Assembly (NCBI RefSeq): GCF_030547685.1
Contig: NZ_JAUOQM010000053.1
Span: 28,959 to 89,055, forward strand
Reading direction: 5' to 3'
DNA length: 60,097 bases
DNA from: Gilvimarinus sp. 2_MG-2023
GTDB lineage: Bacteria > Pseudomonadota > Gammaproteobacteria > Pseudomonadales > Cellvibrionaceae
Translations under genes and position numbers: made by a program
Part shown: positions 31,991 to 38,261 of the stretch, piece by piece
How positions within the stretch are numbered: the first letter of the stretch is position 1
Layout of the letters: each line of letters begins with the position of its first letter
Notes under the pieces: model-generated
What the model was told of the DNA's origin: nothing
Database searches by the model: none
What the model saw: only the letters and a program-made list of their open reading frames with translations

Positions 31991-32719
31991 TTAGTCGTTT
32001 CCGGGGTAGTTCACCACAGCGATATAATGCATACCGACCGCGTCCTCTCCGACAAAACCCGGAATAAAGCGAGAGTCTTTCAGGGCGCCTTCAATAATAC
32101 GGGCGTCGCGACGAGCCCGGCCACGCGCTTCAATGGTTTGCACACTGTCCACACCGCCTTCAGCGTTGACGTTACCGAGAATACGAGCCATCTGACCGCT
32201 ATTGAAAAAACGCTGGCCTTCACCGCGGTCGGAATAGTTACTGTACCAATCGGCATTGTCCAAACGCTCTTGCGGGGCGAAGTAACTTACGCCATATTCG
32301 CGCTGTAGTGTACCCATATTGGGCAGCATCACCACATTGGGCTGTGAGTCGTTGCGCGAGTACACAACGCGAAAGGTCATGCGAACAGGCACCGCTTCGC
32401 CATCCACCTGAGCAGGGGTAAAAGCCAAGCCGTCTAAAGCGCGCTCGGTTTGCCCTTGCAGATCATCGTAACCGGCTTTCTCAAAACAAGTTACATTGCT
32501 GGCGGCACCCGTGGTAGCAATGTCAGCCTGACAATATACAGCTATAGTTCTATTATCAGTGGCCATAGATTGGGGAATAACAACTTTACTGGTTACCTGA
32601 TCAACCACATCGCCAAATTGAGCGGGCTGATACATGGAGCTCGCACTGCTGGAAAAAGGCAGGATAACTGCCAACATTGCCAGTGAACCGAGCACCTTTT
32701 TGGTTAGATGAATTTTCAT
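31991..32719 (-). CDS. Periplasmic protein with two TonB-C-like units
   Basis: 242 residues from the ATG at 32719, eight bases after AGAGGAA; the ATG six bases upstream is too close. The signal peptide or anchor is MKIHLTKKVLGSLAMLAVILPFSSSASS. Two segments, around LDGLAFTPAQVDGEAVPVRMTFRV and LKDSRFIPGFVGEDAVGMHYIAVV, resemble the TonB C-terminal end pattern, each preceded by a strand-helix stretch, so the protein may be a tandem of TonB-C-like folds. No Pro-rich spacer is present. It lies downstream of a TonB receptor but behind that gene's terminator. Function unknown. Confidence 0.6.
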   Translation of the reverse strand: MKIHLTKKVLGSLAMLAVILPFSSSASSMYQPAQFGDVVDQVTSKVVIPQSMATDNRTIAVYCQADIATTGAASNVTCFEKAGYDDLQGQTERALDGLAFTPAQVDGEAVPVRMTFRVVYSRNDSQPNVVMLPNMGTLQREYGVSYFAPQERLDNADWYSNYSDRGEGQRFFNSGQMARILGNVNAEGGVDSVQTIEARGRARRDARIIEGALKDSRFIPGFVGEDAVGMHYIAVVNYPGND

Positions 32720-33118
32720 GCTCATTTCCTCTTTACTGGGGAGTTGCCCCGACTACAAAGTGCGCCAATTGCAATTGTTTAACCAGCGCCGTTGTATTAA
32801 GAATATCACCGCCCCAAGCATATCAATGTTAATTTATTGTGACAGAAATGACTTATTTGCCTGTTTTTGGGCAAAAATTTGAATTTTTTATCGTTTTTTT
32901 AGCCAAATAGTGGGCAAAAAAGGGGCGGAGCGCTCAATTAATGGGCAAATGAGCATTTATCTATAACAAAAAAGTCTAAAAATACCAGTAGTAAAACCGA
33001 CAGTAGAAGCCAAATTCAGGCAAGCACCCCTTCTATTGGGCAAAAAAAAGCCGCTGATGGCAGCGGCTGGTTCGCATTCCTTTGCGTTATTGTCCTGCCT
33101 TGTGACAGGCATTAGGTA
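32720..33118. other. Intergenic region with four TGGGCAAA repeats
   Basis: No gene fits in these 400 bp. TGGGCAAA occurs at 32868-32875, 32911-32918, 32942-32949 and 33037-33044, all in the same orientation. The start-to-start spacings are 43, 31 and 95 bp, close to 4, 3 and 9 helical turns. The AT-rich stretch 32820-32900 lies upstream of the TonB-C-like gene. Confidence 0.6.
33041..33070 (-). terminator. Rho-independent terminator of the TonB-dependent receptor gene
   Basis: AGCCGCTG (33049-33056) and CAGCGGCT (33061-33068) form a stem, followed on the minus strand by T8. It lies about 50 bp past the receptor stop. Confidence 0.9.
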
Positions 33119-35815
33119 TTAGAAGGAGTATTTAAAGTCCAACCCAACACCAGTGCCTTGCTCCTGTTTTAAAATCGTAACCGCTTCACCACCAGCGTTC
33201 ACCTGCTCGAACTCACGGTCTTGGTCAAGCAAATTGCTTAGCTTAAGCTTCAAACTCAGAGTTTCTGTCGGATAGAAGGTGTACACCAGATCTAGCGAGT
33301 GATACGGCATTTCAAATGCGTCCTGGTGGCCGTTAGAGCGCGCCGCATAGTAAACCCGATCACCAAATACGTTATACAACAGCGAGGCTGTATGCATACC
33401 ATCGTCAGAGTCAAAACCCAGCTGTGCATTCATCACATACTCGGACTGGCCCGTCATACGACGTACCGTATTGGTAAAGCCTTCACCGTCTGGTGATACG
33501 ATCTCAGAATCGCTTAATGTCAGGTTACCGGACACAAACAAACCGCGACCCAAGCCTTTCTTACCTTCAAACTCCAGGCCATATATCTCACCGGAAGTCG
33601 CGTTGTAATACTCCAGAGAAATATCATCATCTGAGGCTGGCTTGCGTGTTTGCTCAATCGGATCAGAAATTTCTTTATAGAAGAAAGAGACAGTGAGGTT
33701 ATCCCCGTCGCCATAAAACCATTCTGTGCGCAAATCCAAATGGTTAATTTCGGAGAACTTAAGCAAGGGATTGCCTTGAACCAGAATACCCAAATCGGGG
33801 TCGATGTAAGACACATTCGACATCTCCCGCAAATCTGGGCGAATCACTGACTGGCTAACCGCTGCGCGAACCTGGAAATCATCGGCATCCATAAAGCCCT
33901 GATTCATATAGGTCAACGCTAAGGATGGATACCAGCCGTCTTCTTTAATCGCTAAGGACTGCCCCTCTTTGGCCAATTCTTCGTTCAGCTGACGAATTGA
34001 TTCACCAGTGTGATCCAGCAGATCGATTGGCAATACCGCCTGACGAAAATCCTCATAGCGCACACCGGCATTGACCCGCCACGTATAATCGAAATTGATA
34101 TCGATCATGCCGTAGGCAGCATCCGTCATTTGGGCGGCAATATAACTTTCCTGCCCAGTCGCGGTTCCCATGCTCAGGTTAAAGCCGTTCTCCAGGCTGC
34201 TTAAGTTATCATCCGACAACACCGCCCCGGGAGTTCCGGCCAATACATCGCCAGATATACCGGCAGTATTAATGTTGGCCGTGTAACCGTAGTAAGCACG
34301 CGATTTGTCGTTGTAATCATAACCACCACTTAACGTGACCAGGTTGTTGCCAAAGTTTAATGGCAACTCCACATCCAAGCCGTAGCTTTCAACGTTATCC
34401 TCCAGTTGAAGGAATGCAAAGGTGGCCACGGATGTGGTCGCCAGTAACGCCGTGTCAATCAGTTCGCCAGTCGCTGGATTCAGCGTGTTGGAGCCCTGAA
34501 TATTAGTCTCGTTAGGTACAGCAGTCTCCGCCTTGGAGTCTGAGTAGTACCAGTTAGCACTCAACTCATCCATTGCATCAAACAAGTCAAACTCGACAGC
34601 GTGATCACCCGTCACCTGGAGTACCTCAAGGCGACGCTCTTCAAAACGAGTTTGATAATCCACTCTCTGGGAGCCATCGGCAAGAGTGTTGTTGTTATTA
34701 AAACCTTCTGTAATGCTGGCTAAATCTTCAGTGTTAGTAATAAAGAAGCCGCTCGCTTCGATTGTGTGCATTTCCTGAAAACTAACACCGGCACTGACCG
34801 AGGCCAGCTCTTTTACTTCTTCGGTGGTCCGGGCTACTTTCGAGTTCACGGTATCCGGGTTACCAACACCCTTTTTCTCTTGATTCTTATTGCGCCACTC
34901 TTTGTCATAAGAGAGGTTGGCCAGCGCACCAATGCGCCAATCATCAGAGACATACCAAGAATTACCCAGCGACACTTTGGCGCCTACATCGGGATCAAGA
35001 GATTTTGAAGTGATCTCAACGTCCCGATCCAGCGAGAGAATAAGGTCGCGGTTGATTTGTTCGGCTTGCTCACGCAGTTCGGCACTGGCCGCGCCGCCAC
35101 TGGTGTGCAAAACATTCAGGATGCCATTGATGCTGGGGTCACCCTGGTATTGAGTCAACGCATTGCCCAGCTCAACGGGAATGCCATTATCAACATCACC
35201 ACCGGAGTAAGTTAGACCGTCATTACTGCTCTGACTGTTCCAACCGGTACCGATTGAAATATCGAATACGACATCATCGGGGATACCTTTGGTGCGGATA
35301 TCAACACTACCACCACCAAAAGTTGCCGGTAAGTTGGGAGAGTAGGCTTTTTGCACTTTTAGCGTTTTAACAATGCTAGAAGGCAAAAGGTCGAGCGGTA
35401 GCACGTTACGCGTTAACTCTGGTGACGGCACAGCCGCGCCGTTGAGTCGGGTCGTAGAATAACGCTCCCCCAAAGAACGAACGTAGACGTACTGGTTGTC
35501 GACAACGGTCAAACCAGTAACACGAGAAAGCGCGGCGGCAATATCGGAGTCGCCAGCGCGGGAAATTTGATCAAATCCGAGAACATCAGCGGCGTAGGGC
35601 TGCTCAATGCGCTCATCAATAATTGAATCGGACGCGCTTTGTAGGCGGCCAACTGTAAGAACTTCTTCAATCACCGGTGCTTGAATTCTTGGTGTTGAAG
35701 ATACTTCACCGGCGTCGGAAGATTGTGCAACAGCCTGCTGGCCACTGTACAACACGACGGACGCTGCCATTATCGCCAGGCTTAACTGGCGTCGCTTGGA
35801 AGTCATTGTGCGCAT
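33119..35815 (-). CDS. TonB-dependent outer-membrane receptor
   Basis: An 898-residue 22-strand barrel receptor. The signal peptide ends near QQAVAQ|SS. A TonB-box-like IEEVLTVG follows at about residues 49-56, then the plug (residues about 70-185; VYVRSLGERYSTTRLNG, then FGGGSVDIRTKG), and the chain ends in an aromatic barrel signal (FKYSF). The plug is of the type seen in large receptors of unknown substrate that sit beside a lipoprotein gene. The lipoprotein with a PHO-box promoter lies immediately upstream on the same strand, suggesting phosphate-responsive uptake. No siderophore or vitamin B12 genes lie nearby. Confidence 0.93.
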   Translation of the reverse strand: MRTMTSKRRQLSLAIMAASVVLYSGQQAVAQSSDAGEVSSTPRIQAPVIEEVLTVGRLQSASDSIIDERIEQPYAADVLGFDQISRAGDSDIAAALSRVTGLTVVDNQYVYVRSLGERYSTTRLNGAAVPSPELTRNVLPLDLLPSSIVKTLKVQKAYSPNLPATFGGGSVDIRTKGIPDDVVFDISIGTGWNSQSSNDGLTYSGGDVDNGIPVELGNALTQYQGDPSINGILNVLHTSGGAASAELREQAEQINRDLILSLDRDVEITSKSLDPDVGAKVSLGNSWYVSDDWRIGALANLSYDKEWRNKNQEKKGVGNPDTVNSKVARTTEEVKELASVSAGVSFQEMHTIEASGFFITNTEDLASITEGFNNNNTLADGSQRVDYQTRFEERRLEVLQVTGDHAVEFDLFDAMDELSANWYYSDSKAETAVPNETNIQGSNTLNPATGELIDTALLATTSVATFAFLQLEDNVESYGLDVELPLNFGNNLVTLSGGYDYNDKSRAYYGYTANINTAGISGDVLAGTPGAVLSDDNLSSLENGFNLSMGTATGQESYIAAQMTDAAYGMIDINFDYTWRVNAGVRYEDFRQAVLPIDLLDHTGESIRQLNEELAKEGQSLAIKEDGWYPSLALTYMNQGFMDADDFQVRAAVSQSVIRPDLREMSNVSYIDPDLGILVQGNPLLKFSEINHLDLRTEWFYGDGDNLTVSFFYKEISDPIEQTRKPASDDDISLEYYNATSGEIYGLEFEGKKGLGRGLFVSGNLTLSDSEIVSPDGEGFTNTVRRMTGQSEYVMNAQLGFDSDDGMHTASLLYNVFGDRVYYAARSNGHQDAFEMPYHSLDLVYTFYPTETLSLKLKLSNLLDQDREFEQVNAGGEAVTILKQEQGTGVGLDFKYSF

Positions 35816-35955
35816 GTTAAAAACCTATTCAGGCGGTTTTCTGTTCGAATGGAGTTCGGTTTCCCCCCTGATACTTCTGGCCCGTGAGGCCGAAGGGGTG
35901 ACCGAGTGAGGCGAGCCGCCTCTATACTCTTACATTAAGCTTGGGGCCTTATCGC

Positions 35956-35987
35956 AACAGGGCGCCCCATTAATAAGGCGCCCTGTT
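35956..35987 (-). promoter_or_regulatory. Strong stem-loop between lipoprotein and receptor genes
   Basis: AACAGGGCGCC (35956-35966) pairs perfectly with GGCGCCCTGTT (35977-35987) around a 10-nt loop, about 20 bp past the lipoprotein stop. No T-run follows on the minus strand. It looks more like an mRNA processing or stabilising element, or a leaky terminator, inside an operon than a full terminator. Confidence 0.7.
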
Positions 35988-36008
35988 ACTTGAGCCGAGA
36001 CGCCTAAC

Positions 36009-37712
36009 TTAGTCGTCCAGACCTACAGTCCAGCCAGCGACCCAGTTGTTATCAGCGCTAACCGCACCGATAAAATCAACCGCGTCAAAGAAGTTGCTGG
36101 TTCCTGAATCACTCAGAGCAGGAGCAGCACCGGCTTCGAACTCGTTAGCAAGCATAGTCACGTCGTAAACAGGAACGTTAATTACGTTGCTATTGCCGTC
36201 GGTCATGCTACCGGCAGTAATGTAAGCGCGTGGATTGCTGTCCAGGCCTTCAATAACAACCGCAGGCAGTGCACCAGTGGTGTTTTCATCCAGAATCACG
36301 TTGTCAGTGTTCTCACCAGAGGCTAACCAAGCGTCAATATCGAAAGCACCGTTGGCAGGATCAACACCAGCTTTAGTCGCTTCGGTACAAGCAACCACGT
36401 TGCTCTTGGCAACAGACCAGCCGTCGATTGCCGCTGCAATAGTTTGTGGACCTTCGGTGTCATCCAACTCCAGACACTCGTTAGATTCCATGCCAGAGGC
36501 GTTAGACGTTACGATAGAGTTGTATAGCTCAAAGTGCGCACCTTCGCGGAACAGTGGGCCTTCAGAGCTACCTTTTGAACTTGGGTGCTCACCGTCGTTT
36601 TCGCCGACATTAGAAGTGATACAGGTCATGTTTGAGATACGACCTTTAGTGAAAGGCTCGATGTTATCGGCGCGGTCACCACCAGTGTTGTCCGCTTCGA
36701 TACAACGGTTTGAACCAGAAGTGTGAGTAACCAGTGCGAATTGAATGTCGCCCACCCAGCCTTCAGAGAAGTCGATCGAGTCATCACCTACGTTTACGGC
36801 AACAACGTTTTTCAGGTCAACCGCACCGCCGAACATCTCAAATCCGTCGTCCAAAGTGGTGTAAGTTTGTACGTACTCGATCTCAGTGCCAGAACCTACC
36901 GCGTTCAGGGTCAGGCCGTTCAGCTCTGAACCATCAACCACTTCGTAGCCTGCGTAGCGAATTTGCACATAGTTCAGGATACCGCTGCTTTCGCCGTTGT
37001 TGTTACCACCGTAAGTCGCTGGGCGACCTTCGGCCGTTACGTGACAGTTGTGAACGTTGTTGCTGGTCGCTTGACGCTGAGCATCGGTACACTTGTTGGT
37101 AATGCCGTTACCGTTGATTTGTACACCACCCCACAAACCGCGATCACCTTCGGTGGCCGCACCGTCGCGCAGGTCAGTAACGGAAGAGAATACGATTGGC
37201 GCATCGGCCGTACCTTCAGCGATAATCGAAGAGCCGCGGGCGATACGAACATAGTCGGCTGAAGAAGAGAAAGCGATGAGAGCGCCGGCTTCGATAGACA
37301 GCACAGAACCTTCGCCTTCCTGAGGAATACGAACGCCGGTTGAAGCTTCGCTGGCATCAACGTCTTCACCTACCCAGAGGCTGTCCTGGAAGATGTGCAA
37401 ACCACCGTTTTCCAAGGCGGGGATATTCAGATCAACAGTCAGGGGGCTGACGTCGCTAACAAATGCGGCGCTGTAAGTACAGTTGCCGTTAGCGTAGGTA
37501 CCTTCGCGAGTTTGGCCCGCTTCGGAGTATGACGCACATGGGTTAGTGTCAGTGCTTGGAGTGTCACCGCCACCAGCTTCGTTGGTGATGTTGTTGGTGG
37601 TGTTGTTTGAGTTAACCTGATCGCTTGAAGGGTTCAGGTTAATGTCGCCGCCGCCACAAGCAACCAACATGGCCGCCAAAGTATTTACGCTAATGAGGGT
37701 CTTGATCTTCAT
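36009..37712 (-). CDS. Surface-type lipoprotein with a right-handed beta-helix
   Basis: 567 residues from the ATG at 37712, preceded by GGGAGAGTTGGAA; the longer frame to 37772 lacks a signal. The lipobox MLVAC|GGG is followed by a disordered Asn/Thr/Ser/Gly linker of about 40 residues. Then comes a large domain of repeated short strands (GSSIIAEGTADAPIVF, LWGGVQINGNG, GILNYVQIRYAG, DDGFEMFGGAVDLKNVV) typical of a parallel beta-helix, with several Cys pairs. No lyase or hydrolase active site is recognisable. Its position ahead of the receptor gene suggests a ligand-capturing partner of that receptor. Transcription is predicted from a PHO-box promoter. Confidence 0.75.
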   Translation of the reverse strand: MKIKTLISVNTLAAMLVACGGGDINLNPSSDQVNSNNTTNNITNEAGGGDTPSTDTNPCASYSEAGQTREGTYANGNCTYSAAFVSDVSPLTVDLNIPALENGGLHIFQDSLWVGEDVDASEASTGVRIPQEGEGSVLSIEAGALIAFSSSADYVRIARGSSIIAEGTADAPIVFSSVTDLRDGAATEGDRGLWGGVQINGNGITNKCTDAQRQATSNNVHNCHVTAEGRPATYGGNNNGESSGILNYVQIRYAGYEVVDGSELNGLTLNAVGSGTEIEYVQTYTTLDDGFEMFGGAVDLKNVVAVNVGDDSIDFSEGWVGDIQFALVTHTSGSNRCIEADNTGGDRADNIEPFTKGRISNMTCITSNVGENDGEHPSSKGSSEGPLFREGAHFELYNSIVTSNASGMESNECLELDDTEGPQTIAAAIDGWSVAKSNVVACTEATKAGVDPANGAFDIDAWLASGENTDNVILDENTTGALPAVVIEGLDSNPRAYITAGSMTDGNSNVINVPVYDVTMLANEFEAGAAPALSDSGTSNFFDAVDFIGAVSADNNWVAGWTVGLDD

Positions 37713-38261
37713 AAGTTCCAACTCTCCCAGAATGGATAGTTTGCAAAAAATAGTTTTGTGATCGCAGGCCATGCCTGCGCTCGGTAATCCGTAGCACTTC
37801 GTTGTGCCTTGCTCATGGCCGACTGAATATTAGCGCTCGCACACGTCGAGCTCAGTGCTCATGTGGCGCCTATACTTGACGAGTTTTATGAAAGTTGCGT
37901 GACAGCTTTATGAAGGTTTTGTTTCAGGGGAACTTTTGGATACATACTGACCACCTCACGACAGGGCCTAGCTCTGATCAAATAACAGTCAATCAGCGCC
38001 TGACACACCGAACATCTGGCACGCAATGGCACGTCTATATTGATAACGACAGGCTATTTGACTTTACCCACCAAAGCGGTAACCTACGGCTGAATTCATT
38101 TTTATGACCGAGAGCAGAACATTGGCTCGTTGCCTTCGCTTTTTTTTGTGGAGAACTTCTCCTATCTTCCCCTCTTGATAGTGCCGCCTGGCACTTGATG
38201 CGCTTCACCTCAACCTTAATTAAGTACTCGAAATAAGTAATATCGTTTTATAGGCATTACC
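37713..38261. other. Intergenic region with PHO-box promoter
   Basis: About 550 bp between the minus-strand lipoprotein gene and the plus-strand Rnk-like gene. The left half holds the PHO-box promoter (37869-37916). In the right half only small dyads are seen: GGAGA-ACT-TCTCC near 38150-38162 and GTGCC-GCCT-GGCAC near 38180-38193. The short plus-strand frame at 37895 is not supported as a gene. Confidence 0.6.
37869..37916 (-). promoter_or_regulatory. PHO box (three PhoB-type 11-nt repeats) and -10 element
   Basis: Read on the minus strand, three contiguous 11-mers occur: CCTTCATAAAG (37916-37906), CTGTCACGCAA (37905-37895) and CTTTCATAAAA (37894-37884). Each begins with a CTGTCAT-like heptamer plus four A-rich bases, the PhoB direct-repeat format. 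The first two are close to the E. coli phoA box. TATAGG (37874-37869) follows as a -10 with the repeats covering the -35 zone. The leader to the lipoprotein ATG would be about 150 nt. Confidence 0.7.

Follow-up and report, generated by a model that had tools for sequence, protein, structure and literature searches.

We consider it very likely that a tandem array of PHO-box repeats in the window (i.e., the whole stretch of DNA analyzed here, 60,097 nt in length) is a promoter activated by the response regulator PhoB, and that the lipoprotein gene it precedes encodes a member of the ElpS family. The features discussed are as follows, from upstream to downstream on the minus strand:

37873..37927, minus strand: predicted PhoB-site array of five 11-nt units, CTGAAACAAAA / CCTTCATAAAG / CTGTCACGCAA / CTTTCATAAAA / CTCGTCAAGTA, then TAGG
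37888..37905, minus strand: best two-unit PHO box, CTGTCACGCAACTTTCAT, with a score of 17.0 by the pstS-trained matrix
37869..37877, minus strand: candidate -10 region, AAGTAT (37877-37872) or TATAGG (37874-37869), then GCGCCACATGAG
36009..37712, minus strand: predicted ElpS-family surface lipoprotein of 567 aa (lipobox Cys19), homologous to the C. vibrioides lipoprotein
35954..35989, minus strand: GC-rich hairpin between the lipoprotein and receptor genes, with a 16-pair stem
33119..35815, minus strand: CC0171-like TonB-dependent receptor, 898 aa, with PF00593 and PF07715
33049..33068, minus strand: intrinsic-terminator-like hairpin and T run after the receptor gene, with an 8-pair stem
32827..32845, minus strand: conserved element CTGTCACAATAAATTAACA ahead of the third gene, a possible weak PHO box
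31991..32725, minus strand: third gene, 244 aa, with a signal-like N terminus and a TonB_C-like domain

Phosphorylated PhoB is described as binding PHO boxes and recruiting RNA polymerase, with the 11-nt repeats replacing the -35 element (PMC11208175). Read directly, the minus strand from 37916 to 37869 is CCTTCATAAAG / CTGTCACGCAA / CTTTCATAAAA / CTCGTCAAG / TATAGG. The three central heptamers agree with CTGTCAT at five, six, and six of seven positions, which confirms the three contiguous CTGTCAT-like 11-nt units of the original prediction. Two weaker units, in register with these, extend the array that had been proposed (CTGAAACAAAA upstream, 37927-37917, and CTCGTCAAGTA downstream, 37883-37873), for a total of four to five units on the minus strand ahead of a -10-like hexamer. 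The array resembles pstS/phoA-type promoters (as represented by pstS of relatives) in having CTGTCAT-like heptamers repeated at 11-nt spacing before a -10-like hexamer, and differs from them in the number of units, which is two in the pstS/phoA type, and in the candidate -10 region. TATAGG, which had been placed at -10 distance, lies 13 nt past the two-unit box CTGTCACGCAACTTTCAT (+31 from the box start), or 3 nt beyond the pstS spacing, and this part of the earlier layout needs to be amended; AAGTAT has the pstS-site spacing (10 nt past the box, +28 from the box start) and is a poor hexamer. The GCGCCACATGAG stretch that follows is invariant in an alignment of eight congeners.

Two such units alone are a weak signal, since the two-unit consensus (≤3 mismatches) has 233 matches genome-wide versus 166 with a reversed control; within the window alone, a two-heptamer search gave four matches versus 3.5 expected, a number reached by 49 of 100 shuffles (not significant). 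For a degenerate three-unit PHO pattern, which was chosen after the array had been seen, the array is the sole one-mismatch match in the 3.76 Mb genome, three others having two mismatches; at ≤3 mismatches there are 22 genome matches versus 13 in the control. We also scored upstream regions using a matrix whose training set consisted solely of pstS promoters, in order to avoid circularity outside the genus. Training used 22 of 26 pstS sites (those of L224, L225, L226, and L243, with fewer than ten heptamer matches, were left out), and significance was assessed by shuffles and other controls, with background from regions holding the lipoprotein upstreams and the G006 pstS set aside. The 350-nt region upstream of the lipoprotein gene has p = 0.0006 by this matrix (5000 dinucleotide shuffles).

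Homologues of the lipoprotein occur in 48 of the 97 genomes searched (its own genome and relatives). In the upstream alignment of eight genomes of the genus, which have common ancestry and are not independent, there is a sharp footprint from 37927 to 37862 (CTGAAA to ATGAG), in which 47 of 66 columns are invariant; next to it, invariant columns number 5 of 120 directly upstream and 29 of 150 across the leader. The pstS-only matrix places a site before the lipoprotein gene in 27 of 30 homologues at p≤0.05 and in 24 of 30 at p≤0.01, these 30 being the best-scoring of the 48 genomes with a match, the window's own included. The repeats on whose conservation upstream of orthologous pairs the original prediction had been staked are thus conserved; in three of the 30 close relatives (L046, L049, and L065) there is no site at p≤0.05. 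As a control, receptor-gene upstreams in 20 of these genomes have a site in one case at p≤0.05. Among other-gene upstreams the count is 7/54 at p≤0.05 (three of them at p≤0.01); the best three of these seven lie before two porin genes and before the L095 third gene, which is on the opposite strand there, and two more of the seven also belong to third genes. Windows drawn at random from the close-set regions pass 0.05 in 32 of 300 cases, some of which may overlap true sites, and the shuffle p-values are therefore somewhat generous in this set.

The wider set was comprised of the best 80 of at least 562 loci from a scan of named genomes begun from a Caulobacter member; 77 of these were scored, mostly from alphaproteobacteria and xanthomonads. 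The same matrix finds a site in 34 of the 77 at p≤0.05 and in 26 at p≤0.01, and 43 are without a significant site, while receptor upstreams give 4/75 and 0/75, and random windows 17/300 and 7/300, at the respective thresholds. At the C. vibrioides locus (L150), the region before the lipoprotein gene has only a half match (p=0.34). Chance repetition would be in keeping with the frequency of two-unit matches in the genome and the lack of enrichment within the window, but it is contradicted by the genome rank of the array, by the footprint, and by conservation over genera and classes, and its probability is negligible.

The genome encodes PhoB and PhoR in adjacent genes (TIGR02154, 365.5 bits; TIGR02966, 420.3 bits; both above cut-off), and PstS is also encoded. 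The matrix score is highest for the pstS site (28.9), although pstS was in the training set. An untrained site of 22.4 precedes the receptor gene of a receptor-phytase-PhoX cluster on contig 57, in which the PhoX gene is without its own site (best 4.0). On contig 46, two sites (22.0 and 14.9) lie before a Porin_4 gene. Upstream of phoB itself the highest score is 10.4, less than the 17.0 of the lipoprotein-gene array. The ranking against pstS/phoA-type sites that had been proposed as a check holds to the extent that the array falls among the sites of known phosphate genes, in a comparison of selected sites. In the congener G006, pstS, with a site of its own, is the next gene after the lipoprotein, receptor, and third genes.

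Members of the OmpR family other than PhoB also bind direct repeats, and several further full-length regulators in the genome match the PhoB model with scores under its cut-off, such that a non-PhoB response regulator of this family might use these 11-nt repeats. We regard this as very unlikely, given that the matrix came from pstS promoters only, that the same motif stands before the receptor-phytase-PhoX cluster and porins, that pstS is adjacent in G006, and that published relatives of the lipoprotein gene are reported as induced by low phosphate (PMC2996285; PMC8115612). Control of the lipoprotein gene by PhoB, as originally predicted, is well supported by the site rank, by the footprint, by conservation in different genera and classes, and by a genome that encodes both PhoB and PhoR.

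Additional PHO-like sites were observed elsewhere. The receptor-phytase-PhoX cluster of contig 57 (L070:6847-11541 (+) and G000:C57:241830-243464) is a second PHO-boxed cluster in the same genome, with genes for a TonB-dependent receptor, a phytase (PF02333), and a PhoX phosphatase in consecutive order. The GGDEF gene divergent from the contig 57 cluster has its own site of 18.6, and two-unit sites are found before GGDEF/EAL genes in L002 and L016. Upstream of a TonB receptor-like gene (L253; CarboxypepD_reg, Plug, and OMP_b-brl_4), at G000:C47:33330-33369, there are approximately four 11-nt PHO-like units; a PF13620 receptor is described as induced by low phosphate in Flavobacterium (PMC8115612). 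Porin_4 genes with strong PHO sites occur at L069:6641-7579, L085:8594-9559, and L089:8908-9945, and those of L085 and L089 are near the lipoprotein/receptor module. They possibly encode a phosphate-starvation porin.

An upstream in-frame ATG in the lipoprotein gene gives an alternative ORF of 587 aa, starting at 37772. The lipobox is LVAC, and Cys19 is invariant in 18 lipoprotein sequences (the signal was judged by eye). No Pfam or NCBIfam family was found in the protein at E≤0.01, and there is no believable PDB sequence match, a single row at E 0.5 being taken as noise. The predicted model is all-beta (pLDDT 79.3, pTM 0.83), and the modeled fold is probably a parallel beta-helix. A SusD-type lipoprotein was rejected on the basis of the all-beta model and the lack of a Pfam family (SusD domain) at the same threshold. 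A fold search with the model gave nothing below E 0.001; the best match, to pectate lyase Pel9A, is weak (E 0.013, TM 0.27/0.36), and many other weak matches are to beta-helix polysaccharide lyases, hydrolases, and epimerases. In eight diverse lipoproteins, the Caulobacter one included, seven acidic residues (D288, D289, E292, D310, D311, D314, and E339) are invariant, which suggests that this conserved cluster is a metal or active site. The lipoprotein profile matches in 63 of 396 genomes of a phylum sample. Among these matches, L127, L134, L135, and others have frames of ∼900-980 aa with two tandem lipoprotein-domain matches, and there are many such homologues.

The lipoprotein may instead be a polysaccharide-active beta-helix enzyme or a glycan binder with an indirect link to phosphate (e.g., through phosphate-holding glycans), a reading with which a PhoB promoter would be compatible. 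The resemblance to Pel9A and to further beta-helix carbohydrate-active enzymes is in its favor, the invariant acidic residues would fit a metal or catalytic site, and a polygalacturonase was the reported modeling template for the Flavobacterium relatives (PMC8115612). However, no fold match reaches E 0.001, and no believable PDB sequence match or Pfam family bears it out; we judge it unlikely. Surface handling of a phosphorus source by the lipoprotein and its receptor is the most likely role, with about an even chance of being correct.

The receptor gene adjoins the lipoprotein gene in the window and in all 20 of the relatives' regions compared, which were picked from the 30 tested homologues. 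In one of these, the draft genome of L084 (3680-6311), the receptor gene appears to be split in two ORFs by a frameshift or assembly error. In 14 distant regions, selected from the 63 genomes of the phylum sample, the two genes adjoin in 13; the order is reversed in L138, and in L139 they do not adjoin. A PDB search with the receptor profile at E 1e-10 gave no match.

The closest described system is that of Caulobacter. The window lipoprotein matches that of C. vibrioides T5M6 (L150) at 36.1% over 230 aa (E 6.7e-36), and the receptors match at 29.7% over 936 aligned positions (E 3.7e-81); the two loci share the same order, as well as a lipobox Cys that is followed by glycines. At the T5M6 locus this order is lipoprotein, receptor, and GspD (617 bits, cut-off 351), and the published order in Caulobacter is cc0170 (ElpS), cc0171, and gspC-N (PMC2996285). 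Because of this homology, and because the gene order of the T5M6 locus equals the published one, the window pair very probably belongs with ElpS/CC0171, as judged from sequence and by way of T5M6, not the CB15N sequence. The original prediction had called the pair uncharacterised, which does not wholly hold, as its lipoprotein is homologous to a published product of phosphate starvation. ElpS is reported to be made on phosphate starvation and to be surface-exposed and released (PMC2996285). In the same account, overexpression of ElpS raised extracellular phosphatase activity, ElpS apparently being no phosphatase itself, and deletion of elpS left phosphatase activity unchanged (PMC2996285).

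The window differs from the Caulobacter locus in two respects: the PHO array is strong where L150 has a half match, and a TonB_C-like third gene stands where type II secretion genes would be. Type II secretion genes are described beside the pair in several species, and are not presented as defining in the accessible portion of that account (PMC2996285); the Caulobacter PhoB regulon is reported to take in the type II system together with several TonB receptors (PMC11208175). No type II secretion gene was seen by eye among the window ORFs beside the pair. Two genes above the GspD cut-off occur elsewhere in the genome, and a motif of GspE (the type II ATPase) occurs near the pair in 4 of the 14 distant regions, two of these being confirmed by model.

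In another phylum, the hypothetical lipoproteins FI, FII, and FIII of Flavobacterium johnsoniae, which were modeled on polygalacturonase, are described as strongly induced by low phosphate, with FI and FII clustered with induced receptors and FII within the phoBR cluster (PMC8115612). They are reported to be 31-36% identical to the Caulobacter lipoprotein, and a Flavobacterium relative is the exoprotein of greatest abundance when phosphate is depleted (PMC8115612); their likeness to the window lipoprotein is drawn from this published description. The PusCD/SusCD-like complexes of the same source also pair a TonB receptor with a surface lipoprotein under low phosphate (PMC8115612), whereas the window lipoprotein is without a SusD domain and its model is all-beta.

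The GC-rich hairpin in the window lies between the two genes of the pair, and intergenic hairpins of this GGCGC type occur in 17 of the 20 regions folded (the window and 19 relatives). L088, L089, and L091 are without one, and L090, in which the genes overlap, was left out of the folding. A T run follows the hairpin in L095 and is absent after that of the window; read-through is therefore likely in the window. A terminator-like hairpin follows the receptor gene; the terminator scan as a whole gave 9 sites versus 7.1 in shuffles, and this hairpin is weak evidence alone. The original prediction also had the receptor induced and a phosphorus compound captured, and both are put forward here tentatively: the intergenic hairpin parts the two genes, and cc0171 is reported to be expressed in rich as well as in poor medium (PMC2996285). 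As read from the sequence, a reasonable arrangement would be strong expression of the lipoprotein, weaker expression of the receptor, and a separate start for the third gene.

In a variant of the main reading, the array would drive the lipoprotein strongly and the receptor little, if at all, with the hairpin ending or protecting the lipoprotein message and the receptor expressed at a low level or independently; the lipoprotein would then be mostly an abundant, partly released surface protein. The prevalence of the GGCGC-type hairpins, the T run in L095, and the scarcity of PHO sites in receptor upstreams (1/20 and 4/75 at p≤0.05) argue for this variant, as does the reported expression of cc0171 in both media. 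Against it stand the probable read-through of the window hairpin, the adjacency of lipoprotein and receptor in 20/20 close relatives' regions, and the reported induction of Flavobacterium receptors beside such lipoproteins (PMC8115612), and we hold it to be somewhat unlikely.

The third gene accompanies the pair in 13 of the 20 relatives' regions, a count in which it could be missed in L088, where the region ends soon after the receptor. Its protein matches TonB_C (PF03544) at 24.5 bits, marginally short of the 24.6 cut-off; of three third proteins of relatives that were scanned, two exceed the cut-off and one is without a match. No proline-rich linker was seen by eye in the window's protein, which is unusual for TonB, and its model is poor (pLDDT 63, pTM 0.53). 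An element like CTGTCACAATAAATTAACA is the best-scoring stretch upstream of the third gene in 12 of 14 cases (by eye), and at this element the matrix gives p≤0.05 in 5 of 14, the window having p=0.12. The third gene of L095 (7175-7924) is encoded on the opposite strand, with a strong PHO site to itself (TTGTCATACACCTGTAAC, p=0.003), which supports membership of the third gene in the regulon. We tentatively suggest, as a proposal with less than even prospects, that ElpS-type pairs belong to the core of the PhoB regulon across Proteobacteria and are not peculiar to Caulobacter, and that in this lineage they are part of a three-part module with a TonB_C-like protein that has no obvious membrane anchor, bears a PHO-like element of its own, and is perhaps an accessory or adaptor of the receptor.

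In the mechanism we favor, PhoR would phosphorylate PhoB under phosphate starvation, and PhoB would bind the tandem 11-nt units, which would stand in for the -35 element. RNA polymerase would then start ∼150 nt upstream of the start codon of the lipoprotein gene. The product would be an ElpS-family lipoprotein of the outer membrane, with a CC0171-type TonB-dependent receptor as its partner. The beta-helix lipoprotein may bind or process an extracellular phosphorus-bearing polymer, or promote extracellular phosphatase activity, and the receptor would import the product.

Because it is related to the Caulobacter ElpS system, the pair very probably represents a phosphate-scavenging module of a known type, not a novel one. 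In the portions of the open-licence literature that were accessible, we found no earlier report of PHO boxes before ElpS-type genes in gammaproteobacteria or in several Proteobacteria classes. The new points are modest: a long multi-unit array, PHO sites before ElpS-type genes in several Proteobacteria classes, and a TonB_C-like third partner. The conserved PhoB signature offers a simple handle for locating ElpS-type genes in genomes along with their partners, for which the third gene is a concrete candidate. Uptake of organic phosphorus at the outer membrane bears on the competition for phosphate among marine and soil bacteria.
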